Shown here: piece by piece, positions 16,407-28,745 of the stretch
Layout: each line of letters opens with the position of its first letter
Position numbering within the stretch: position 1 is the first letter of the stretch
Assembly (NCBI GenBank): GCA_014762645.1
Contig: JABURP010000119.1
Coordinates: forward strand, 1 to 64,000
Source of the DNA: Crocinitomicaceae bacterium
GTDB taxonomy: Bacteria > Bacteroidota > Bacteroidia > Flavobacteriales_D > Crocinitomicaceae
Direction: 5' to 3'
Length of the DNA stretch: 64,000 nt
The notes under the pieces: generated by a model
Told to the model about the DNA's origin: nothing
Database searches by the model: none
The model's input: the letters and a program-made list of their open reading frames with translations, nothing else
Program-made: the position numbers and the translations under genes

Positions 16407-17681
16407 ATGTTAAAACAAATCTTATTATTGGGGTATATTATTGGAATTAACTGCGTCGCATTAGCTCAACCTGCTAATGATGATTGTTCGAGCGCCGAAC
16501 AACTCTGTGTAGACCAGGTGATTACAGGATCAACCGCTTCGGCAACTTCAAATTCATCTGAGGACAATGCTTTTTGTACCACAAATTCTGCCACAGTTTG
16601 GTACACGTTTACCACAAACTCAACCGGCGGAAATGTCTCCGTGGATATAACCAACCTCAGTTTTAATCCAGATGTGAGTTATGGGCAGAGCATTGATGCA
16701 GTCATTTTTTCGGCCTCTACACCTTGTGATCAAACAACTTACACGCCTGTCTCTAACTGTTTTAATGGATCTTCTGATTTTTCAGTTCCTTCCGCTATCG
16801 CATTAAACCCTAACACAACTTATTATGTTATGATCAATGGAACCAATTCTGGTGCCGGTGTTACAAACTCTGCAGAAGCTGATTTTGATATCACGGTATC
16901 AGGGGCGGGTGTCTCATCCTCCTATCCTACAGGATCAATTTCAGCTGCAGATACAAGTCTTTGTCAGGGTGACAGTGTTGAAATTATTACGACAGTTGCT
17001 AATTGCTCCTCCAGCTTAACCTACAACTGGTACTATAACAATGCACTTTTTTCAAGTGGCACGACGAGTGATATCAACACCGGTGACTTTAATAATTCTG
17101 GCTGGCTTAAACTTCTTGTGAATTGTGGAGATGCCTGTGTTTATACAGATACAACCGATAGTATTTATTTTGATGTTACAGCAATAGCCGCAGATGCCGG
17201 TCCAGATAAATTCATTCAGGACGGAGACGTAGTCACCCTGGAGGGGTCTGGAAGTGGTGTTCCATTTTGGACTCCTGGAACCAGTTTAACCGATCCAAAC
17301 ATTTTTCAACCATCTGCTAACCCAACTTCCAACACCACGTACTTCTTAACAGTAACAAATGGAAGTTGTGTGGCCACAGACAGTGTAAATGTTTTTGTTG
17401 GTGAGGTCGTCATTATTTTCTCGGCTTTTTCTCCCAATGGAGATGACATTAACGATAAATGGGTGATCAAAAATGCATCTAATTACCCTGACATGGAAGT
17501 TACAATTTATGACAGATCGGGTCAACGTGTATTTAACACGACCGGTTATAGTACTCAGGATAAATGGTGGGATGGCACCTATAAAGGTAAGCCACTTCCT
17601 GTTTCAACCTATTATTATGTCGTTGATTTAAAAATTGGGGAAGATGGGATATTTAAAGGGCATGTCAGTATTATTAAATAA
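16407..17681 (+). CDS. Secreted T9SS cargo with gliding-motility-type C-terminal domain
   Basis: 424 residues. Signal peptide MLKQILLLGYIIGINCVALAQ, then an N-terminal domain starting PANDDCSSAEQLC that is common in exported Bacteroidota surface proteins (residues ~22-170). One or two Ig/PKD-like segments follow (170-335). From ~338 comes a CHU_C/type B T9SS C-terminal domain (FSAFSPNGDDINDKWVI, VTIYDRSGQRVF, WWDGTYKGKPLPVSTYYYVVDL). It is presumably exported to the cell surface through the T9SS. The stop codon is directly followed by the ATG of a SprF-like gene, the classic cargo/SprF pairing. The adhesive or enzymatic role is unknown. Confidence 0.85.
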   Translation: MLKQILLLGYIIGINCVALAQPANDDCSSAEQLCVDQVITGSTASATSNSSEDNAFCTTNSATVWYTFTTNSTGGNVSVDITNLSFNPDVSYGQSIDAVIFSASTPCDQTTYTPVSNCFNGSSDFSVPSAIALNPNTTYYVMINGTNSGAGVTNSAEADFDITVSGAGVSSSYPTGSISAADTSLCQGDSVEIITTVANCSSSLTYNWYYNNALFSSGTTSDINTGDFNNSGWLKLLVNCGDACVYTDTTDSIYFDVTAIAADAGPDKFIQDGDVVTLEGSGSGVPFWTPGTSLTDPNIFQPSANPTSNTTYFLTVTNGSCVATDSVNVFVGEVVIIFSAFSPNGDDINDKWVIKNASNYPDMEVTIYDRSGQRVFNTTGYSTQDKWWDGTYKGKPLPVSTYYYVVDLKIGEDGIFKGHVSIIK

Positions 17682-18623
17682 ATGAAAAGTTTTCTTTTAT
17701 ATATCAGTGTTCTCACTTGTTTGCCACTCTTTGGGCAACAGATGGAACACTATACACAGTATCAGTTTAACCAATTCGCATTTAATCCAGCGGTTGCGGG
17801 CACGAAAAGCTGCATTGACATTAGAACCGGTTATCGTTATCAGTGGGGCGGAATTGATGGCGCCCCCCAAACAGGATTTGTCAACGCTCATGCACCGCTT
17901 CGTTTTAGCAAGAAAAACAGAAATAGTTTTGGCCCAAAACACGGTATAGGTGGCCAAATCAAACGTGATGTTTTTGGGCCATTCTCTAACTTAAAGCTAG
18001 AAATAGCCTATGCATTGCATCTTCCTATTTCAAGAAACTGGAAACTATCTTTTGGGGCGGCATTTGGGTTTATGCATACTGGGTATAACGGTGGAGCACT
18101 TACGACTGAGCTCTCCGACCCTGCACTTCCGGCTGCCAGTCAATCGTTTATTGTATTTCCAGATGCCAAGTTAGGATTTTGGATTACCGATAAAAAGACG
18201 TATTTTGGTTTGTCCGTTCACAATCTGATTGGTAATCAATTAGACGAAATCGGGCCTGAAGCAAAACTTCAGAGGCATGTGTATATAACTGGTGGCCGCA
18301 GTTTTTCACTGGAGAAAAAATGGTCTTTAATTCCATCTTTCTTCTTTATGTGGACAAAAGCCACTCCTATAGACTTCCACCTAAGCGCATTGGTGGATCT
18401 CGATAATAAACTCTCTTTTGGACTTGGTTTAAGACGGACTGACGCTATAACAGCACAAGTTCGTGTGAAATTTTTTAATTGGATATCGCTTGGGTATTCC
18501 TTTGATTTTGTGATCTCTAAGCTTGCTGGAAATATGTGGTACACGCATGAGATCACCGGAGGGTTTAACTCCTGCTCGAATTATGGCAACACCAGTTCTA
18601 CTGATTGTCCTTCGTTTGAGTAA
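17682..18623 (+). CDS. PorP/SprF-family outer-membrane protein, partner of the upstream cargo
   Basis: 313 residues. A signal peptide (MKSFLLYISVLTCLPLFGQ) is followed by the PorP/SprF hallmark QMEHYTQYQFNQFAFNPAVAGT and RYQWGGIDGAPQT. The rest is a beta-barrel pattern typical of the family. In Flavobacterium johnsoniae, SprF is needed for export of SprB, a cargo with the same C-terminal domain type. The gene begins at the base after the stop of its likely cargo, so the two are co-expressed. A Cys-containing tail (CSNYGNTSSTDCPSFE) is unusual relative to the other two SprF-like proteins here. Confidence 0.92.
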   Translation: MKSFLLYISVLTCLPLFGQQMEHYTQYQFNQFAFNPAVAGTKSCIDIRTGYRYQWGGIDGAPQTGFVNAHAPLRFSKKNRNSFGPKHGIGGQIKRDVFGPFSNLKLEIAYALHLPISRNWKLSFGAAFGFMHTGYNGGALTTELSDPALPAASQSFIVFPDAKLGFWITDKKTYFGLSVHNLIGNQLDEIGPEAKLQRHVYITGGRSFSLEKKWSLIPSFFFMWTKATPIDFHLSALVDLDNKLSFGLGLRRTDAITAQVRVKFFNWISLGYSFDFVISKLAGNMWYTHEITGGFNSCSNYGNTSSTDCPSFE

Positions 18624-18729
18624 ACAACCTTTGGAATAATTGATGCGTTATCATATAACGACGGTTGATAACTTGTTAATAACGGGTTTGATGCCAACAA
18701 GAACTATGGTATTTTTAATGCTACAAACT

Positions 18730-21700
18730 ATGAAAAAATTGAAATTTACAATTAAGCCATTTGTAGTTCTTATTGCTTTCGTTTTCTCCCTTAACGCATT
18801 TGCAACCGACTATTATTGGATTAATGGAGGTGGTAACTGGAATGACCCCACGCATTGGTCCATAAGTTCAGGAGGCTCTTCGAGCATGTCTGTTCCTGGC
18901 CCAACGGATAACGTCATCTTTGATGACAATTCCTTTAATGCACCGTATTCAAAGGTCTTTTTTAATTCCAATATAACCGTAAATGACATCACGTTCAGTA
19001 GTCCTGAACCATTTGGAATTATTGGGGAGAATTACTTTCTGCGAGTTACAGGAGATTTTACAACAACACATAAGTTCTACTCGAAATTTCAAACTCTTGT
19101 TTTTGACGCAACTGGTAATCACACCATTTCGACCGCAGCTGGTGACATAGGCGCAAACATATTATTCCAAAACGGAACTTGGGAATTAACCTCTTTACTT
19201 CAAACGTTTAGAGAATACTCCATTGAAATTACAGGCGGCACATTAATTTCAAATGGGCACAGTATTGCAGCAGGATATATTGCGGCGAATACAAACCCAG
19301 TGAACCTCGATTTCACCGGGTCTGCCGTTATTGCATTTAACACCATGGATCTAAGTTCTGCTGTAAACATAGGATTTGGAGCACAGTTTATCTCTGTTGA
19401 CAATGAAATTAACCCTTCTCATCATGGAGGTTTTGGTGGAAGTTCTACCTTCAACAGGGACACCACACATATATGTACAGATTTTTTAGGCAACCCAACA
19501 GGCGTAATTCTGACAGTAACGGATGTAGACTATAATGGCTACAATGTGTCCTGCCAGGATTCCTGTGACGGTGAAATTACTATGTCGGCAATTGGAACAC
19601 CTGGTCCTTATTCTTATAGCTGGGATAACGACCCGTTTAACGCACAGCAAACTTACACGGGAATATGTGCAGGTACTTACAACGCCAGGGTAAAAGATTC
19701 TTCTCAGGTTTTAGGCCCGGGAATTTATCAAAACTGTACCACAGTTGAGGAAATCAACGAGCCTCCAAAATTGTTCTTAGATGTTCTTGGGCCAACAGTG
19801 GATGTGTCTTGTTTTGGAGTCTGTGACGGGCAAGCCTTTACCGATCCCGGCGGAGGTATAGGTGCACCCTATTCAGTTATATGGTCACCTAGTGGTGAAA
19901 ACACTCCTTTTCCGGTAGCGCTATGTGAAGGTCCAAATACCGTACAGGTTTTAGATGGAAACGGTTGTCAATTTGACACAACATTAATCGTTAACGGACC
20001 GCCAGATATCGTGCCGTCGCTTACTATAACTCCACCAACCTGTACTGGTGATTGTGATGCAGAAGTACTAGTTACGCCTAGCGGAGGTAACGGCGGACCA
20101 TACACCTACAGCTGGAGTCCAGTGCCTACTTCCGGTCAAGGAACCAACCCAGGTGTCGGGTTTTGCGCTGGAACAATTAACCTCTCCACATTTGACGTAG
20201 ATGGTTGTCAAAAAGACACGACATTCGATATAATTGACCCGCCAGTTCTAAACATTACAGCGGCTTTTGGTTCCAACGCAACTTGTAATGGCGTTTGTGA
20301 TGGGACAGCAACATCCAACCCTACGGGAGGACAAGGAGCTTATACTTTTGAATGGTTCACTTGTTCGGATGTGCCAACAGGCATTACAGATCAGAATCCC
20401 ACTACATTGTGTGCAGGTAGTTACTACGTAGTTGTTACAGATAATGGTGGAACGGGTTGTACCGATACCAGTAACTGTATAACAATTACTGAACCTCCGG
20501 TTCTTCTTGCTGATGCACAATCTTATCCGGTTTCGTGTTTTGGTGTCTGTGACGGTTCTGTTGATGTGGATGCTAGTGGTGGAACACCATTCGCACTTCC
20601 ACCTCCAGGAAATTATACCTATTCCTGGGTTACTGTTCCAGGTGGTTCAGGAGTTGGTGGAGTTGATAGTCTATCCGGATTGTGTCCTGGATTTTATGAA
20701 GTAACTGTAACGGATGCTAACGGTTGTACTTCAGAACCAGACACAGTTGAGGTTACAGAGCCACCTCAGTTGGCAGTTACTATTGCAACCACTGATCCTA
20801 CTTGTTATGATTTATGTGATGGCTCTATGGTGGCTACCCCTTCTGGTGGTACCGCTCCATATTCTTATGTCTGGACTCCGGCTCCAGGTGCAGGTCAGGG
20901 AACACCAACGCCTTCTTCTATGTGTGCAGGAATTTATACGTTAGATCTAACTGATGATAATGGCTGTACACTACAGGTTGAAGATACGCTAAACGCTCCT
21001 CCTACTTTTGATGTTACGGTTAACAAAACAGATTTGGTATGTAATGGTGATTCAAATGGTACGATAGATATTACTGTAAACAGTGGTGGTTCTGGATCTG
21101 GATACACCTACAACTGGGTTCCGGCTCCGCCTGTTGGACAGGGAACACCAAATGTCTCTGGATTAACCGCGGGCACCTGGTGCGTAACTATATCAGATGA
21201 TATGCTTTGTGATACAACCATTTGTATTGACATTATTGAACCGACATTATTAACTGCAAACGCATCCGTCATTTCACAAGTTAGTTGCTTTGGCGTTTGT
21301 GACGGGTCAGCTCAGGTTGTTATTGGTGGTGGAGTAACGCCTTATAGCATTACTTGGACACCAACAGGACAAACAACTTTAGTGGCAAGTGGATTGTGTG
21401 CAGGACCTTACACAGTAGATGTGGTTGATGATAACGGATGTACGGCAAGTGATAATGTTAATATAATTGAACCAGGACCTTTTAATTTGGACACTTCACA
21501 TACGGATGTATCATGTTTCGGAGACTGTACCGGTACTGCAACCGCAAACGTATTATCCGGTGGTTCCGGACCATTTTCTTATTCCTGGGCACCATCAGGA
21601 CAAAGTACACCAACTGCCATTAATTTATGTGCCGGTGTTCATACGGTTACGATTACTGATAATAACTTATGTGATACTGTTGTTTCATTTACGGTTATAG

Positions 21701-24700
21701 AGCCTCCAGCCTTATCCATTGATACCAATGTAATCAACTCAGCTTGTTTTGGGGCTTGCTCCGGTGAAGCGAATATTGATGTTACCGGTGGAACCGCACC
21801 ATATTCTTTTGAATGGTTTGATGTAGCCTCGGGTCTGCCTCTGGGAGTTAACAATGACTCCATTACAGGACTTTGTCCTGGTCAGTATTATGCTGAGGTA
21901 ACAGATGCCAACGGTTGTAATCTAGGCTCTGATACCATAACAATTACTGAACTGCCTGAAATCTTTACAAGCGTTTTAAATGTTACTGATGCAACTTGCG
22001 GACTCTGTGATGGAACTGCAGATGTTGAAGCCACAGGTGGGGCAGGTAACTTTACCTACATATGGACTCCAGCTCCTGGTGGCGGTCAGGGTACACCAAA
22101 CGCGACCGGATTATGCGCAGGTGTTTACAATGTTGTGGCTACAGACCAGGCAGGCTGTTCGGCAAATATTGCTGTAAATGTAAACAGTGTTGCATTAGAG
22201 GTAACTTCAATGGATTCTACCAATATTTCATGCTTTGGCTTGTGTGATGGACAGGCACAAATTTCCTATAATGTCCTGGACCCACCATATACAGTTGAAT
22301 GGTTTGATGCAGTTACTGGTTTACCAATCGGTATAGTTGACGGACCACCAGCCTCTAACCCTAGTGTTGCTACAGGCCTTTGTGCTGGTTCATACTTTGC
22401 TGTGCTAACAAACAACTCCGGCTGCGTTACTTCTGATACGGTTTCAATATCAGAACCACCACAGATTACAGGAACTGTAACACCAACGGATGTTACCTGT
22501 AATGGTGCTTGTGATGGATCTGCTACCGTAGTAGCATCCGGAGGTACTCCATTTACTGTAGGATCTCCATATACTTATACATGGACTCCTCTTCCAGGAT
22601 CAGGGCAAGGTACACCAACGGCAGGCGGTTTATGTGCCGGCAACTGGGATGTTACCGTAACGGATAGTTTAGGATGTAATGAAACATTTTCAACTACTAT
22701 CTCAGAACCTACAGTATTAATTATAAATAGCACCACACCATCAGATATATCGTGTTTTGGCGCCAATGATGGGTCTGCGTCAGTGTTGCACACAGGAGGA
22801 ATACCTCCTCACACTTACGATTGGATTGATTGTAACTCCGGTTTATCTATCGGTCAAACAACTCAAACCGCTTCTAACTTAGGGCCTGGAGATTACCAGG
22901 TTGTTGTAACTGATGCCAATGGCTGTACCGCTACTTCACCTTGTGTAACCGTGAATGAACCTACCCCTATTACTGCTAATACCAACATTAGCCCAGTTAA
23001 TTGCTATGGATACTGTGATGGAATGATAGATGTTGTTCCTGCAGGAGGAACTGCACCTTATTTCTATCAGTGGCAAGATGAATTCTTTGTTGACCTCCCT
23101 GGCCAGACAAATGACACAATGAACAACGTTTGTCAGGGCATATATAATGTGGAAGTAACAGACTTTAATGGTTGTACGCAAACATTCGGTCCATTCGATA
23201 TGACTTCCCCTACGAATCCTTGGAATGTTAATGAGTCACAAACGAACATCACCTGTTCAGGAGCTTGTGATGGAACAGCAACGGTAACCGTGGTTTCTGG
23301 AAATAATCCGCCATACACATATTTATGGGATGATCCTTTAAATCAAACCTCTCCTACAGCAACGAATCTTTGTGCAGGAACATACAATGTAACCATTTCG
23401 GATGCTGGGATATGTGATACGGTTATTACATTTACTATAGCTGATCCGAATCCTATTGTAGGAAATGAAACAATCACACATGTGCTTTGTTTCGGTGATT
23501 GTACCGGAGAAATAGCATTAGCACCATCAGGTGGTACCCCTCCTTATACTGTGACATGGTCAGACTTACAAATTGGCGATACAGCTTACGCATTATGCGC
23601 CGGTCCAATTTCTGCAACAATTACAGATGCGGCAGGATGTAACGTTACATTGCCGTTTACTATAACAGAACCACCGGAACTTACGGCTACGTCTTCCTTC
23701 TCTAACAACTCAGCATGTGGAGCCTGCAACGGTAGTGCAACAGTTAATGCGAGCGGAGGAGTACCGTTATCACCAGGGCCACCATTCTATAATTATGTTT
23801 GGTCACCAGCCCCTGGAGCAGGTCAGGGAACAAATGCGGCTAGTTCAATGTGCCCTGGCGTATATTCACTAGATGTAACGGATGCAAATGGTTGTGTTTA
23901 TACAGAAGTATTTACGATATCTGATGTTCCTTCTGAGGTTATTACAGTAGACTCAACAGATGTTTCTTGTTTTGGAGAATGTGATGGTGGTGTAGAGGTA
24001 ATTTATATCTGTAGTGATCCGCCTTGTAGCAATCAGTGGTATGATGCTACAACAGGAAACCCACTAACCGGCGAAACGGGAAGCACAGTAGATAGTCTTT
24101 GCGCAGGCGACTATTTTGTTGAAGTAATAAATGGTTCAGGGTGTGTGTCTATAGCTCCTATTTCAGTGGGTGGACCAACTCAAATTCTTGATAATGACAC
24201 AATCACTCAGATTACATGTAACGGTGCCAATGATGCTACCATTACACTAAACCCTTCTGGTGGATCGGGTGTTGGCTACACCTATGTTTGGACTCCGGTT
24301 CCGCCAAACGGTCAAGGAACAAATCAAGCACTTAATCTGGGTGGTGGAACTTATTGTGTAGACATTACTGACAGTGATGGGTGTACACAGAGTTATTGTT
24401 ATACCATTGTAGAGCCATCTGCAATTAGCATCACACCAACAATAACAGATCCGTTATGTAATGGTGATTGCAATGGAATTATTTCAGTTGCTGTGACTGG
24501 TGGATATGGAAGTTATGTCTATCAATGGTATGATGGGGGTGGTGCACCAATACCAGGGGCTAATGGCTCATTAATTAGCGGTTTATGTGCAGGTAATTAC
24601 ACGGTAGAAGTTACAGATGCCGGAGGATGTGTACAAACATTATTTATCACACTTACCGAGCCTAGTGCAGTAACGAGTACGATCACTGATACAGATGTAA

Positions 24701-27700
24701 CATGCTTCGGAGATTGTGACGGAACGGCTACTGTGAATCCGTCCGGTGGTTTTTCACCGTACACAGTACAGTGGTATAACAATACTACAGGATTCTTAAT
24801 AGGACAAACAGGAACTTCTGCAACAAACTTATGCCCAGGTTTTTATCATGCTGTGATAACCGATAATAATGGTTGTAGTTATCAGACACCTGCGGTAGAA
24901 ATCACGCAACCGGCTGAACTTACATGGACAATTAATATTAATGACGCGACCTGTTTTGGTGTTTGTGACGGAGATGCTGAAATCATTCCTGCAGGTGGAA
25001 CCGGACCATATACCTATGAATGGTTGGATATTTCAGGATCACCTATCGTAGGAGGAAGCAATCCTATGGTAACTAACTTGTGCGCGGGTAATTATACTGT
25101 ATCAGTAACTGACGCCAACGGATGTACTTCAGGGCCTCAACCAGTTGTTATTAACAGCTCGCCTCAGATTACTGGCAATGTATTTACGAATAATGCTACC
25201 TGTGGCGTCAGCGACGGTAATGCAACAATTAATGCATCTGGTGGAACTTCACCACTAACATACCAGTGGCAAGATGAGTTCTTTAACCCATTGGTAGGTG
25301 AAACTAATAATGTGTTGATGAATGTGAGTTCAGGCACTTATTATGTCGTAGTAACTGATGCCATTGGATGTACAGAAACATTCCAGGCAAACATCAGTGA
25401 TAATTCATCCACTACGCTAACTTTTGATGCTGTGGTAGATCCAAGCTGTTATGGAAGCAGTGACGGTTCGATAAGTATAACTACAACTACAGCTAACCCT
25501 CCATTGACTTATACATGGAACCCGGGCGGCTTAATCGCCGAGGACCCAACAGGCTTAACTGCGGGAACATGGACTGTTCAAACAACAGATACGGCCGGTT
25601 GTATTAATTTCTTCGACACTACTCTTGTAGATCCTCCAGAATTAATTGTTACTTCCACCTCAACCCCATCAGATTGTGGTCAGTGTAATGGTACTGCGGA
25701 CCTGGTTGTGACTGGAGGTACAGGGGCCACAGTAATCAATTGGAGTAATGGAGACACAACGGCTTCCGTTACGGGATTATGCCCAAGTATTTATGAAGCA
25801 CAAGTAACAGATCAAAATGGATGTTTGGTAACTGAACAGGTTGAAATTCCAAATAACGGTGGCTTAACCGGTGCTGAAACTATAGTTGCTATCTCATGTC
25901 CAGGCGCTTGTGATGGCGCGGTTACCGTTACCGGAGTAGGTGGTACGGCTCCATACTCTTACCTATGGTTGCATGACAACTCAACTTCTGATACACAAAC
26001 CAATTTATGTGCTGGATCGTATTTTGTAACCATTACAGATGCAATTGGTTGTGCCTTTGCAATAGAAGTTGTAATAAATGATCCTGCCGGTATACAGGCA
26101 AGCCCAACAGTAAACAACCCTAGTTGTGGAAATTCAGACGGATCGATCTCAGTACTTACTTCAGGCGGAGTATTACCACATACTTACTTGTGGAACCCAG
26201 GAGGAAGTACAAATCCATCTATATCAGGATTGGCAGCAGGTGTATATACACTTACTGTGACAGATGCTGCAGGTTGCTCTGATGATTTCGTTTATGGCTT
26301 GAGCAACTCAAGTGCTCCTGTAGCCACGTTAACCGCAACCAACTCCAACTGTGCCAACTCATGTGACGGTCAAATAGACACGTCGGCAGTAATTGGCGGA
26401 ACACCAGCATTTACTTATCAATGGTTTGATGATGGAGGAGCACCAATGGCTGGTGAAATAAACCCTCTAATAAGTGGTTTGTGTGAGGGCACCTACATTC
26501 TTGAATTAACTGATGCAGTAGGTTGTATTTCTTACGTCAATGCAAGCATTACTCAACCAGACACAATATTGTTGAATCCAATTACAGCTATTAATCCAAC
26601 ATGTAATGGCCTGTGTGATGGTCAATTAATCACAAACCCTATTGGAGGGACACTTCCATTCACCTATCTATGGGATAACCCTCAGGCATCCACTACAGTA
26701 TTGGCAGATAGTTTATGTGATGGCACCTACAATGTTGTGATAACGGATGCAAATGGCTGTACGGAGAATCAATCCGGAACTGTCATTGAACCGTCTCCAA
26801 TAGTTATTGTAACGGACAGCATTATTGATGCGACTTGTTGGAACTCCACAGATGGTGAGATCCATGTAACTATTTCAGGAGGAACTTCACCGTATACTAC
26901 TCAATGGGTGTCTCAAACACTACAGGACACATTCAACGTAGAAGATCCAGTTGGTATTATGCCTTATGATTATTACTTGACCGTAACAGACGTGAATGGT
27001 TGTACGGCAATGGATACTGCTTCAGTAGATACTTTGATTTCAGTGATTGCTACCGTCGGCATGGATACCGTGATTTGTCTTAATGATTCGGCCAGTGTGT
27101 ATGGATACTCGAATGTAGATCCAATGGCATCATTGACATGGTATGACACAACCTTTGCCAACGTTTATAGCGTTACCAATGTCATGTCACCACCAACTGA
27201 TGTTGCAGGCACATTTGAATATATTTTCATAGCCAACTACATGGGCTGTAATCACTCTGACACTATTTTCATAACGGTTACAGATGCCTTTACGGTAGAG
27301 GCTGGACCTGATATTGAAATGTTTAGTACACAGACTGAGACTATCGGTGGTAGCCCGACCTCTATGGATCCAACACATACCTATGATTGGTCACCACCAG
27401 ATTTCTTGTCGGACACGACATCTTCAAACCCTGATGTTGTAGAGCCACAAAGTAGCGGATGGTACTATGTCACAGTAACGGATTCAATTGGATGTACAGC
27501 TATCGACTCTATGTATGTTGAGCTTCGTCCGGATATCGTTATTCCAGATGGTATCTCTCCAGACGGAAACGGATTAAATGATACATGGATTTTGGATTTC
27601 ATTGAGTTGTACCCTGGTGTTGATATACAAATCTGGGTATATAACAGGTGGGGTGAACCAATCTTTGCCTCTGATGAAAACTATCAGGATGACTGGGGAG

Positions 27701-27813
27701 GAACGACCAGTGATGGTAAGCGATTACCTGCGGGAACTTATTATTATACGATAGAAATCGACCATGAGGACTTCCCAGAGCCGTTTACTGGTCCAATAAC
27801 AATAATGTGGTAA
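18730..27813 (+). CDS. Giant SprB-repeat surface protein (about 3027 residues) with T9SS C-terminal domain
   Basis: Start chosen at the ATG at 18730 because a normal signal peptide begins there (MKKLKFTIKPFVVLIAF, ending NAFA); an upstream in-frame start at 18640 has no signal character. Residues ~30-265 are a beta-rich N-terminal domain (DYYWINGGGNWNDPTHWS). Residues ~275-2770 hold 31 SprB-type repeats of about 70-85 residues, each with CfGvCDG, GGT-PY-Y-W, LCAGtY-V-VTD-NGC. Two Ig/PKD-like segments follow, then a CHU_C sorting domain (VIPDGISPDGNGLNDTWIL, IWVYNRWGEPIF, LPAGTYYYTIEI). It is likely a T9SS-exported surface filament or adhesin analogous to SprB. It is unusually cysteine-rich. 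A SprF-like gene follows and overlaps its 3' end region. Confidence 0.9.
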   Translation: MKKLKFTIKPFVVLIAFVFSLNAFATDYYWINGGGNWNDPTHWSISSGGSSSMSVPGPTDNVIFDDNSFNAPYSKVFFNSNITVNDITFSSPEPFGIIGENYFLRVTGDFTTTHKFYSKFQTLVFDATGNHTISTAAGDIGANILFQNGTWELTSLLQTFREYSIEITGGTLISNGHSIAAGYIAANTNPVNLDFTGSAVIAFNTMDLSSAVNIGFGAQFISVDNEINPSHHGGFGGSSTFNRDTTHICTDFLGNPTGVILTVTDVDYNGYNVSCQDSCDGEITMSAIGTPGPYSYSWDNDPFNAQQTYTGICAGTYNARVKDSSQVLGPGIYQNCTTVEEINEPPKLFLDVLGPTVDVSCFGVCDGQAFTDPGGGIGAPYSVIWSPSGENTPFPVALCEGPNTVQVLDGNGCQFDTTLIVNGPPDIVPSLTITPPTCTGDCDAEVLVTPSGGNGGPYTYSWSPVPTSGQGTNPGVGFCAGTINLSTFDVDGCQKDTTFDIIDPPVLNITAAFGSNATCNGVCDGTATSNPTGGQGAYTFEWFTCSDVPTGITDQNPTTLCAGSYYVVVTDNGGTGCTDTSNCITITEPPVLLADAQSYPVSCFGVCDGSVDVDASGGTPFALPPPGNYTYSWVTVPGGSGVGGVDSLSGLCPGFYEVTVTDANGCTSEPDTVEVTEPPQLAVTIATTDPTCYDLCDGSMVATPSGGTAPYSYVWTPAPGAGQGTPTPSSMCAGIYTLDLTDDNGCTLQVEDTLNAPPTFDVTVNKTDLVCNGDSNGTIDITVNSGGSGSGYTYNWVPAPPVGQGTPNVSGLTAGTWCVTISDDMLCDTTICIDIIEPTLLTANASVISQVSCFGVCDGSAQVVIGGGVTPYSITWTPTGQTTLVASGLCAGPYTVDVVDDNGCTASDNVNIIEPGPFNLDTSHTDVSCFGDCTGTATANVLSGGSGPFSYSWAPSGQSTPTAINLCAGVHTVTITDNNLCDTVVSFTVIEPPALSIDTNVINSACFGACSGEANIDVTGGTAPYSFEWFDVASGLPLGVNNDSITGLCPGQYYAEVTDANGCNLGSDTITITELPEIFTSVLNVTDATCGLCDGTADVEATGGAGNFTYIWTPAPGGGQGTPNATGLCAGVYNVVATDQAGCSANIAVNVNSVALEVTSMDSTNISCFGLCDGQAQISYNVLDPPYTVEWFDAVTGLPIGIVDGPPASNPSVATGLCAGSYFAVLTNNSGCVTSDTVSISEPPQITGTVTPTDVTCNGACDGSATVVASGGTPFTVGSPYTYTWTPLPGSGQGTPTAGGLCAGNWDVTVTDSLGCNETFSTTISEPTVLIINSTTPSDISCFGANDGSASVLHTGGIPPHTYDWIDCNSGLSIGQTTQTASNLGPGDYQVVVTDANGCTATSPCVTVNEPTPITANTNISPVNCYGYCDGMIDVVPAGGTAPYFYQWQDEFFVDLPGQTNDTMNNVCQGIYNVEVTDFNGCTQTFGPFDMTSPTNPWNVNESQTNITCSGACDGTATVTVVSGNNPPYTYLWDDPLNQTSPTATNLCAGTYNVTISDAGICDTVITFTIADPNPIVGNETITHVLCFGDCTGEIALAPSGGTPPYTVTWSDLQIGDTAYALCAGPISATITDAAGCNVTLPFTITEPPELTATSSFSNNSACGACNGSATVNASGGVPLSPGPPFYNYVWSPAPGAGQGTNAASSMCPGVYSLDVTDANGCVYTEVFTISDVPSEVITVDSTDVSCFGECDGGVEVIYICSDPPCSNQWYDATTGNPLTGETGSTVDSLCAGDYFVEVINGSGCVSIAPISVGGPTQILDNDTITQITCNGANDATITLNPSGGSGVGYTYVWTPVPPNGQGTNQALNLGGGTYCVDITDSDGCTQSYCYTIVEPSAISITPTITDPLCNGDCNGIISVAVTGGYGSYVYQWYDGGGAPIPGANGSLISGLCAGNYTVEVTDAGGCVQTLFITLTEPSAVTSTITDTDVTCFGDCDGTATVNPSGGFSPYTVQWYNNTTGFLIGQTGTSATNLCPGFYHAVITDNNGCSYQTPAVEITQPAELTWTININDATCFGVCDGDAEIIPAGGTGPYTYEWLDISGSPIVGGSNPMVTNLCAGNYTVSVTDANGCTSGPQPVVINSSPQITGNVFTNNATCGVSDGNATINASGGTSPLTYQWQDEFFNPLVGETNNVLMNVSSGTYYVVVTDAIGCTETFQANISDNSSTTLTFDAVVDPSCYGSSDGSISITTTTANPPLTYTWNPGGLIAEDPTGLTAGTWTVQTTDTAGCINFFDTTLVDPPELIVTSTSTPSDCGQCNGTADLVVTGGTGATVINWSNGDTTASVTGLCPSIYEAQVTDQNGCLVTEQVEIPNNGGLTGAETIVAISCPGACDGAVTVTGVGGTAPYSYLWLHDNSTSDTQTNLCAGSYFVTITDAIGCAFAIEVVINDPAGIQASPTVNNPSCGNSDGSISVLTSGGVLPHTYLWNPGGSTNPSISGLAAGVYTLTVTDAAGCSDDFVYGLSNSSAPVATLTATNSNCANSCDGQIDTSAVIGGTPAFTYQWFDDGGAPMAGEINPLISGLCEGTYILELTDAVGCISYVNASITQPDTILLNPITAINPTCNGLCDGQLITNPIGGTLPFTYLWDNPQASTTVLADSLCDGTYNVVITDANGCTENQSGTVIEPSPIVIVTDSIIDATCWNSTDGEIHVTISGGTSPYTTQWVSQTLQDTFNVEDPVGIMPYDYYLTVTDVNGCTAMDTASVDTLISVIATVGMDTVICLNDSASVYGYSNVDPMASLTWYDTTFANVYSVTNVMSPPTDVAGTFEYIFIANYMGCNHSDTIFITVTDAFTVEAGPDIEMFSTQTETIGGSPTSMDPTHTYDWSPPDFLSDTTSSNPDVVEPQSSGWYYVTVTDSIGCTAIDSMYVELRPDIVIPDGISPDGNGLNDTWILDFIELYPGVDIQIWVYNRWGEPIFASDENYQDDWGGTTSDGKRLPAGTYYYTIEIDHEDFPEPFTGPITIMW
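19530..27030 (+). repeat. Array of 31 SprB-type protein repeats
   Basis: About 7.5 kb coding for 31 repeats of 70-85 codons within the giant surface protein. The units are clearly homologous at protein level but diverged at DNA level, so this is an old expansion rather than a fresh tandem duplication. 24 units carry two extra cysteines (CDG and LCAG positions) and 7 units lack both. Confidence 0.9.
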
Positions 27814-27824
27814 TACGTAAACAG

Positions 27825-28745
27825 ATGAAGAAACTTCTTTTAATACCGATCATTTTGCTTGCGTCAGTTGCTCAAGGGCAGCAATTACCGCAATTCAGTC
27901 AATACATGTTCAACCAATATGCACACAACCCTGCTTATGCGGCGGTGAACCCCTATTGGGAAGGAACATCTTGTAATCGCTATCAATGGATTGGAGTAAC
28001 AGACGCTCCAAGGACATTTACTTTATCCGCTCATGGGCCACTGAAAGATCCAAACATTGGTCTGGGAGGTTATGTCTATACAGATATTGTTGGACCAACG
28101 AGGAGAATAGGTTTTCAGGCATCATTTACATATCACATAAGGCTTTATGAGAATATAAAAATGGCTTTTGGACTCTCGGGCGGATTTAATCAGTGGTTGT
28201 TAGACGCGGATAAAATAACCGCTTATCACCCCAATGATTTTTATTTTTCGAATGGTCTCTTGAAGTCAACAGATCCAGATGCAAAATTCGGAATATGGGT
28301 CTATCATCCGGATTGGTTTTTTGGTGCATCTATTGGGCAGATGTTTCACAACAAATTATCTTTTCTGGAAACACAGACCGGTTCAGATAGTTTTATGGAG
28401 GATCACTTCTATTTCACCGGAGGATATACATTCCAAATTGGTGATGATTGGGCTATAGAACCAACCATGATGTTAAAAATGGGCTTACCGGCACCAGTGA
28501 AGTTTGATCTAAATGTTAGAGGTATCTGGCGAGATATGGTGTGGTTGGGAATTGGAATGAGAACACAGGATGGATTGCCATTAATGTTGGGATATAAATA
28601 CAAAGACATGCTCACCATTGGTTATGCATACGACATCACACTCACAAAACTGAAAAGTTATACGACTGGAACGCATGAAATTATGTTGGGCGTTAAATTC
28701 GGTAAACCTGACTCTAAACCTGATGAAGACCCATCCCTTGAATAA
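27825..28745 (+). CDS. PorP/SprF-family outer-membrane protein, partner of the giant protein
   Basis: 306 residues from the ATG at 27825 (MKKLLLIPIILLASVAQGQ signal peptide); an in-frame ATG at 27807 overlaps the giant gene and would put six charged residues before the signal. The mature N-terminus is QLPQFSQYMFNQYAHNPAYAAVNPYWEG, followed by RYQWIGVTDAPRTFTLSAHGP, both PorP/SprF hallmarks. A beta-barrel body ends GTHEIMLGVKFGK plus an acidic tail. By analogy with SprF it should assist export or surface attachment of the SprB-like protein encoded 11 bp upstream. Confidence 0.93.
   Translation: MKKLLLIPIILLASVAQGQQLPQFSQYMFNQYAHNPAYAAVNPYWEGTSCNRYQWIGVTDAPRTFTLSAHGPLKDPNIGLGGYVYTDIVGPTRRIGFQASFTYHIRLYENIKMAFGLSGGFNQWLLDADKITAYHPNDFYFSNGLLKSTDPDAKFGIWVYHPDWFFGASIGQMFHNKLSFLETQTGSDSFMEDHFYFTGGYTFQIGDDWAIEPTMMLKMGLPAPVKFDLNVRGIWRDMVWLGIGMRTQDGLPLMLGYKYKDMLTIGYAYDITLTKLKSYTTGTHEIMLGVKFGKPDSKPDEDPSLE

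Follow-up and report, generated by a model that had tools for sequence, protein, structure and literature searches.

Paired cysteines point to probable interlaced disulfides between neighbouring repeats of SprB-type adhesins

SprB-type proteins serve as handles for gliding and sticking in Bacteroidota. The gliding adhesin SprB (PF13573) of Flavobacterium johnsoniae carries SprB repeats and a CHU_C signal and adjoins SprF-type genes, and the same arrangement is found in the stretch of DNA described here. This stretch, hereafter the window, covers positions 1-64,000 of the forward strand of contig JABURP010000119.1 (assembly GCA_014762645.1), from a Crocinitomicaceae bacterium. An open reading frame (ORF) at positions 18640-27813 codes for a giant SprB-type adhesin, in which 25 stretches match PF13573 (620 bits; curated cut-off 28) and the C-terminus matches the CHU_C type IX (type B) secretion signal (68.8 bits; cut-off 27). 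PorP/SprF-like genes flank the ORF on both sides (221 and 236 bits). Within each immunoglobulin (Ig)-like repeat unit, we name four cysteines: C1 is the cysteine of CxG, C2 precedes DG, C3 lies in LCAG, and C4 lies in DxxGC. The original prediction for this locus was that C2 and C3 form an optional disulfide within a repeat, and it missed a larger pattern wherein C1 and C4 couple between neighbouring repeats. With a probability of about 0.8, we favour a model in which the type IX system exports the protein as a string of roughly 33 Ig-like domains that is reinforced by two layers of disulfides, namely staples between domains and optional braces within them.

The best profile match among solved structures is GhpA, the grappling hook protein of Aureispira sp. 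CCB-QB1 (E 3.9e-39; PDB 9flp, 9fls, 9flu, 9flv, 9flw, 9flx, 9fly and 9g8b), which has 5898 amino acids compared with 3057 for the window adhesin. C1- and C4-like cysteines are present in GhpA residues 1211-1401, the part covered by the alignment shown. Covalent reinforcement is also known from other surface fibres. The isopeptide and ester bonds of Gram-positive adhesins lie inside one domain, whereas the main bonds of the window adhesin would be disulfides that link neighbouring domains. As covalent shortcuts, such bonds in Gram-positive adhesins and pili should limit extension under force (see also PMC12679949, PMC5333627). In the gliding machine, the carrier of the adhesin is tied to the moving track by a disulfide between SprF and GldK, according to passages of a 2025 article (PMC12635249). 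The staples proposed here would belong to the same force-bearing assembly as this carrier-to-track link, and the passages do not treat disulfides in SprB repeats. PMC7698502 and PMC7073777 contain the phrase 'SprB repeat', and the matches listed by our literature search, which covered few subscription journals, gave no account of disulfides within these repeats. With its 37 positions, the Pfam SprB model spans about half of a unit, and the pattern may have escaped notice for this reason.

Two sets of repeat arrays were compared. The discovery set combines the window with 20 more stretches from its own genome and 39 from 10 other genomes, and the hold-out set comprises 40 stretches from 37 further genomes. 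Apart from the window, all were hand-picked among the best matches listed, and the unit profile was trained on the discovery set. Unless stated otherwise, coupling counts refer to complete units, as defined by a filter devised after the discordant cases of both sets were known.

In the window, C1 and C4 are found in all 31 units, with C4 of u01 shifted by an insertion. When arrays were printed unit by unit, a recurring series became apparent that reads 'C1 only, both, C4 only'. Among 435 discovery interfaces, C1 of unit n and C4 of unit n+1 are both present at 405 and both absent at 16, while 14 have C4 only and none has C1 only (phi 0.72). At other lags, phi is -0.04 (d=0), 0.01 (d=-1) and 0.40 (d=-2), with the last value raised because some arrays have a period of three. 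Two other pairings were tried and rejected: C1 with C4 of the same unit, which show no coupling at d=0, and C4(n) with C1(n+1), for which the discovery phi is 0.06 unfiltered and 0.01 in complete units.

The 14 discordant interfaces share a feature. Every one of these units that lack C1 although the next unit keeps C4 (14/14, from four proteins) carries a cysteine in the linker at its C-terminal end, which is seen in only 10 of the 405 units that have C1. If the linker cysteine is counted as a C1 substitute, the discovery interfaces become 419 both, 16 neither and 0 discordant (n=435). Counted in this way, discovery interfaces below 50% identity number 320 both, 16 neither and 0 discordant. 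Within-array shuffling produced at most 10 joint absences in 2000 shuffles, compared with the 16 observed. The hold-out set has 617 interfaces with both cysteines, one with neither and one discordant (L157; n=619).

If C1(n) is bonded to C4(n+1), an array would leave C4 of its first unit and C1 of its last unit without a partner. End counts were made for arrays of at least three units. Among hold-out first units, C4 is missing in 9/33 compared with 2/611 interior units (p 4e-11), and C1 is missing in none of the 33. The last units show the reverse loss, with C1 missing in 5/25 compared with 1/611 interior units (p 3.6e-7) and C4 in 0/25. Discovery last units likewise lack C1 in 11/34 cases (p 3.7e-5) and C4 in none of 34; interior units of this set lack C1 in 29/425 and C4 in 21/425. 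Where the first unit retains C4, another cysteine is often found 11-30 residues upstream of its C1 site (36/40 discovery, 17/24 hold-out). It is suggestive, though not more, that this upstream cysteine is the partner for the first-unit C4, as proposed for the window, where the staple chain would start at a cysteine before u01 and stop at a degenerate unit that lacks C1.

Additional evidence comes from a third set of 18 further loci of named records, which is informative through five Flavobacterium relatives of the discovery locus L099. Its 113 interfaces are 84 both, 29 neither and 0 discordant; without the five Flavobacterium loci, the remaining 18 of 18 are both and thus uninformative. In the Flavobacterium arrays (L099 and L187-L191), every third interface is without both staple cysteines, and this spacing is conserved in orthologues. 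Their complete units also lack C2-C3, and in both respects they differ from the window array, which would be stapled throughout. The pattern suggests that these arrays form rigid triads separated by unstapled joints.

Several observations weigh against the staple model. The 16 joint absences of the discovery set are confined to three proteins (L099, L092 and L085), and the single joint absence in the hold-out set is no more than shuffling yields (mean 0.29, p 0.29), with none below 50% identity. Thus, the hold-out evidence for staples rests on the end effects. These are themselves uneven, because the loss of C4 from discovery first units is weak (5/45, p 0.09; C1 missing in 2/45) and most first units keep C4 (40/45 discovery, 24/33 hold-out). 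Furthermore, hold-out first units that lack C4 also have an upstream cysteine in 7 of 9 cases, although only one of five does in the discovery set. Without the completeness filter, discordant interfaces appear in both sets: 502 both, 24 neither and 12 discordant in discovery (n=538, phi 0.79), and 671 both, 10 neither and 17 discordant in hold-out (n=698, phi 0.55, with about 0.35-0.37 at lag 0). We attribute most of these discordant cases to units that are cut short, masked by Ns or not of SprB type, or to cysteines just beyond the search window. Among 935 interior units, 39 have a lone leftover cysteine. The prediction that whole ORFs should have an even number of cysteines failed (33/59 even, p 0.22), although N-terminal starts and other domains may blur this parity test. 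Finally, although the genome of the window codes for many SprB repeats with cysteines, DsbA (PF01323), VKOR (PF07884) and Thioredoxin_4 (PF13462) were not found in it; DsbB (PF02600) was not searched.

The second layer of the model is the C2-C3 pair. Alignment of the 31 window units bears out the original all-or-none count, in which 24 units have both cysteines, seven have neither and none has one, and the seven units without the pair (u07, u14, u20, u24, u25, u28 and u31) are those first listed. Assuming independent units, this corresponds to a Fisher p of 3.8e-7. The span originally given for the array holds for the 31 units, whereas the frame of cysteines is slightly wider on both sides (19474-19476 to 27493-27495). 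On a tree built from columns other than C2 and C3 for 30 of the 31 window units (u01 is incomplete and was left out), the pair changes state 6 times compared with a shuffled mean of 6.4, and so the trait is not one inherited block.

The coupling holds beyond the window. Units with a single C2 or C3 are absent from the discovery set (65 both, 465 neither, 0 single; n=530) and nearly absent from the hold-out set (171 both, 516 neither, 4 single; n=691). Without the filter, the corresponding both/neither/single counts are 66/570/2 (n=638) and 172/596/14 (n=782), and among units below 60% identity they are 58/406/0 for discovery and 127/340/4 for hold-out. Three of the four complete hold-out singles (L157, L160 and L161) are read as misaligned Ig units that are not SprB, and the fourth (L163) as an SprB unit with C3 next to another spare cysteine. 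With the exception of L163, the 14 unfiltered hold-out singles are read as non-SprB, cut or misaligned units. Among sources with complete units, C2-C3 pairs are found in 14/59 from the discovery set and 20/40 from the hold-out set, and are therefore optional and patchy. A second masked-column tree of 890 non-redundant units requires 134 changes of C2-C3 state, compared with a mean of 165.6 and a minimum of 154 among 200 shuffles. Units with a single C2 or C3 were excluded from both trees, and short sequences make poor trees, so these counts are rough and overstated. Roughly speaking, they indicate a history that is partly inherited and includes much independent change.

Structure models are consistent with braces within units. 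An AlphaFold model of u16 (with 12 window units; pLDDT 94.2, pTM 0.78) has strands at residues 13-16, 28-31, 41-45, 48-55 and 61-68. C2 is residue 11, just before strand B (13-16), and C3 is residue 46, just after strand E (41-45). If these strands are antiparallel, as in Ig folds, the model supports a placement in which C2 and C3 face one another where the pairing of B with E ends. Together with the coupling seen in other genomes, this supports the originally predicted intra-repeat disulfide.

Rarer optional pairs also fit strand registers, which provides internal support for cross-strand disulfides. With the window left out, columns 15 and 41 are coupled in 3/3 cases and share the register of C2-C3 (10+46 = 15+41), and the pairs 51-65 (12 both, 4 single) and 49-67 (5/5) have the sum of the modelled F-G hairpin (48-55/61-68). 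In the hold-out set, the equivalent of 15-41 is again 3/3 and that of 51-65 is 5 both and 1 single, whereas an equivalent of 49-67 is absent. A column pair 41-63 is coupled in the hold-out set (13 both, 2 single) and matches no ladder register that we could assign.

The remaining cysteines of interior units tend to come in twos. Units with two leftover cysteines number 23 compared with a Poisson expectation of 5.8 in the discovery set, and 10 compared with 1.3 in the hold-out set. Single leftovers number 19 compared with 59, and 20 compared with 37, respectively. By our count, 24 of the 39 single leftovers are a cysteine of the F strand (column 52 of the first profile; 24/604 units), which has no coupled partner in either set. 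This lone cysteine (YTCTITDANGC) recurs across many loci, including L159, L171 and L178. In the window adhesin, 33 staples, 24 C2-C3 braces and 5 other pairs can take up all 124 cysteines. Such other pairs are found in 3 of the 7 units without C2-C3 and in 2 of the 24 with it, an enrichment that is not significant (p 0.06).

In tandem Ig arrays, the A-B loop of one domain lies at the end that faces the following domain, and the F-G turn of that domain lies at the end facing back, which fits a bond between domains. A model of two neighbouring units (u22-u23; 90 sequences, all of them selected for having C1(n) and C4(n+1)) reaches a pLDDT of 96.0 and a pTM of 0.82. Its linker blocks are at 97-98, suggesting that neighbouring units are likely to pack rigidly. 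For both domains of this model, GhpA fragments are the top three structural matches (Z 9.9, 9.5 and 9.5; best rmsd 5.7 with 149 aligned), although unrelated Ig proteins come within 1 Z of them and so are tied, namely domains d6-d7 of CD22 (9.2) and an Ig domain from a phage (9.0). Fold matches to vertebrate Ig, PKD and FN3 domains were set aside as reflecting a common arrangement only.

According to our model, C1 in the A-B loop at the lower end of unit n would bond with C4 in the F-G turn at the upper end of unit n+1, such that every pair of neighbouring domains is cross-linked within one chain. The window spacing from C4(n) to C1(n+1) is only 25-27 residues (26 for u04), and because of this the staples would interlace, giving two continuous covalent paths along the fibre that bypass most of each domain. 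Each path would run from C1(n) through the disulfide to C4(n+1), and then along 25-27 residues to C1(n+2), remaining continuous across two units. A polypeptide spans about 0.36 nm per residue and a folded Ig domain about 4 nm. The path across two units would thus be about 9-10 nm, near the length of two folded domains, and a nearly inextensible fibre is predicted. Pulling would lengthen it only slightly, even with its domains unfolded. The C2-C3 braces would anchor the beginning of strand B to the turn that follows strand E, and the rarer pairs would tie strands F and G. Braces might come and go as pairs because a lone cysteine is useless or harmful. What was observed is the coupling with its direction, the losses at array ends, the linker cysteines that stand in for C1, and where the cysteines fall relative to the strands. 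From them we infer that the bonds form, that they lie within single chains, and that they contribute mechanical strength.

Other arrangements of the same cysteines deserve consideration. C1 and C4 could instead form an ordinary disulfide within each unit which, together with C2-C3, would make each unit a self-contained domain with two disulfides. The presence of C1 and C4 in nearly all units, including every window unit, agrees with this but by itself is silent on pairing, and the unfiltered hold-out data include some within-unit coupling (phi about 0.35-0.37). However, phi is just 0.13 among complete hold-out units and -0.04 among complete discovery units, of which 27 have C1 only, 43 have C4 only and one has neither. 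The directional loss at array ends, and the linker cysteine that takes the place of C1 if C4 is retained in the following unit, also disfavour intra-unit pairing, which we regard as very unlikely. A staggered multimer, in which bonds run from unit n of chain i to unit n+1 of chain i+1, is harder to distinguish from staples within one chain, since co-evolution appears the same for both and the unstapled array ends fit either. The 56 chains in the eight structure entries for GhpA, the nearest solved relative, suggest a multimer. Even so, the facing A-B loop and F-G turn of tandem Ig arrays, the single-chain tandem model that is confident through its linker, and the constant C4(n)-C1(n+1) spacing in the window all favour bonds within a chain. 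Thus, we consider the multimer unlikely, albeit with some room for it.

Copying history might also create joint patterns if block duplication passes on the presence or absence of cysteines together. The units of a protein are related, hold-out units with the C2-C3 pair tend to lie next to one another in their arrays (phi 0.70 at lag 1), and the changes counted on the large tree fall below the minimum of the shuffles. Yet, with the trait columns masked, the C2-C3 state still shifts about 6 times on the tree of 30 window units and 134 times on the larger one, single C2 or C3 states are nearly absent below 60% identity (none in discovery, four in hold-out), and the rarer F-strand cysteine has no such partner. 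We therefore give copying as a full explanation almost no credence. A last alternative is that the pairs serve as metal sites or redox switches rather than structural disulfides. All-or-none pairs could also mark metal sites, and the genome yielded no match to DsbA, VKOR or Thioredoxin_4. However, two cysteines alone make a poor metal site, the protein has an export signal, and the modelled pairs occupy cross-strand positions expected of disulfides, all of which render this alternative highly improbable. Staples between neighbouring domains of one chain, with optional braces within them, remain our preferred interpretation.

Table 1. Features of the SprB-type adhesin locus in the window
Feature	Positions	Strand	Remarks
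PorP/SprF-like outer-membrane carrier	17682..18623	+	two Cys in C-terminal tail
Giant SprB-type adhesin ORF	18640..27813	+	3057 aa, 124 Cys; Pfam SprB and CHU_C matches
Cys before array (residue 279)	19474..19476	+	proposed partner of u01 C4 and start of staple chain; pairing inferred
31 Ig-like SprB units, u01-u31	19534..27057	+	about 80 residues each; from alignments
u04 additional Cys pair	20362..20478	+	FTC at 20362 and SNC at 20476
u07	21022..21267	+	without C2-C3; F-G strand Cys pair TWCV / TICI
u14	22735..22983	+	without C2-C3; Cys pair WIDC / SPC
u19 additional Cys pair	24010..24027	+	YIC at 24010 and PPC at 24025
u20	24199..24438	+	without C2-C3; F-G strand Cys pair TYCV / SYCY
u24	25183..25428	+	without C2-C3 and without other pair
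u25	25429..25656	+	without C2-C3 and without other pair
u28	26107..26331	+	without C2-C3 and without other pair
u31	26818..27057	+	without C2-C3 and without other pair
Degenerate units u32 and u33	27058..27495	+	u32 with C1 and C4, spotted by eye; u33 with C4 only, also found by profile; staple chain would stop at loss of C1
CHU_C type IX secretion signal domain	27538..27768	+	E 4.4e-19
Second PorP/SprF-like carrier	27807..28745	+	tail without Cys

The two carriers that flank the adhesin gene differ at their C-termini (Table 1). The tail cysteines of the upstream carrier are residues 298 and 309 of 313, and the downstream carrier has none there. These residues may correspond to the twin cysteines in the SprF of F. 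johnsoniae. Directly upstream of the first SprF-like gene, positions 16407-17681 code for a separate CHU_C protein with 11 cysteines.

The genome that carries the window (G000) comprises 128 contigs and is 98.99% complete. At least 148 SprB-repeat matches, spread over many contigs, were found among the 150 of 286 candidates that were scored, and so many proteins of this kind, the window protein among them, are encoded in this organism. SprB repeats are present in 69 of 80 genomes drawn from the same class. An SprB-like stretch was also seen at positions 516577-517947 of an uncultured phage record (LR756502.1, 642 kb), with 34.9% identity over a query of 480 amino acids. A search for PF04777 was uninformative, given that none of the control genomes had a match. 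The staple model raises a question of assembly, namely at what stage relative to type IX export the bonds would form and what would oxidise the cysteines in a genome that has no recognisable DsbA or VKOR.

Huge, thin fibres such as these must bear load, and interlaced disulfides between domains would be a simple answer that is legible from sequence alone. By a narrow margin, we lean towards a broader view in which the SprB-type fibres of Bacteroidota are interlaced disulfide ladders that set the maximum length of the fibre nearly regardless of folding. Species might tune stiffness by the regular removal of staples, as at every third joint in some Flavobacterium arrays, and by the gain or loss of braces within domains. 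In combination with the SprF-GldK disulfide, the force path of gliding could be covalently reinforced all the way from track to tip.

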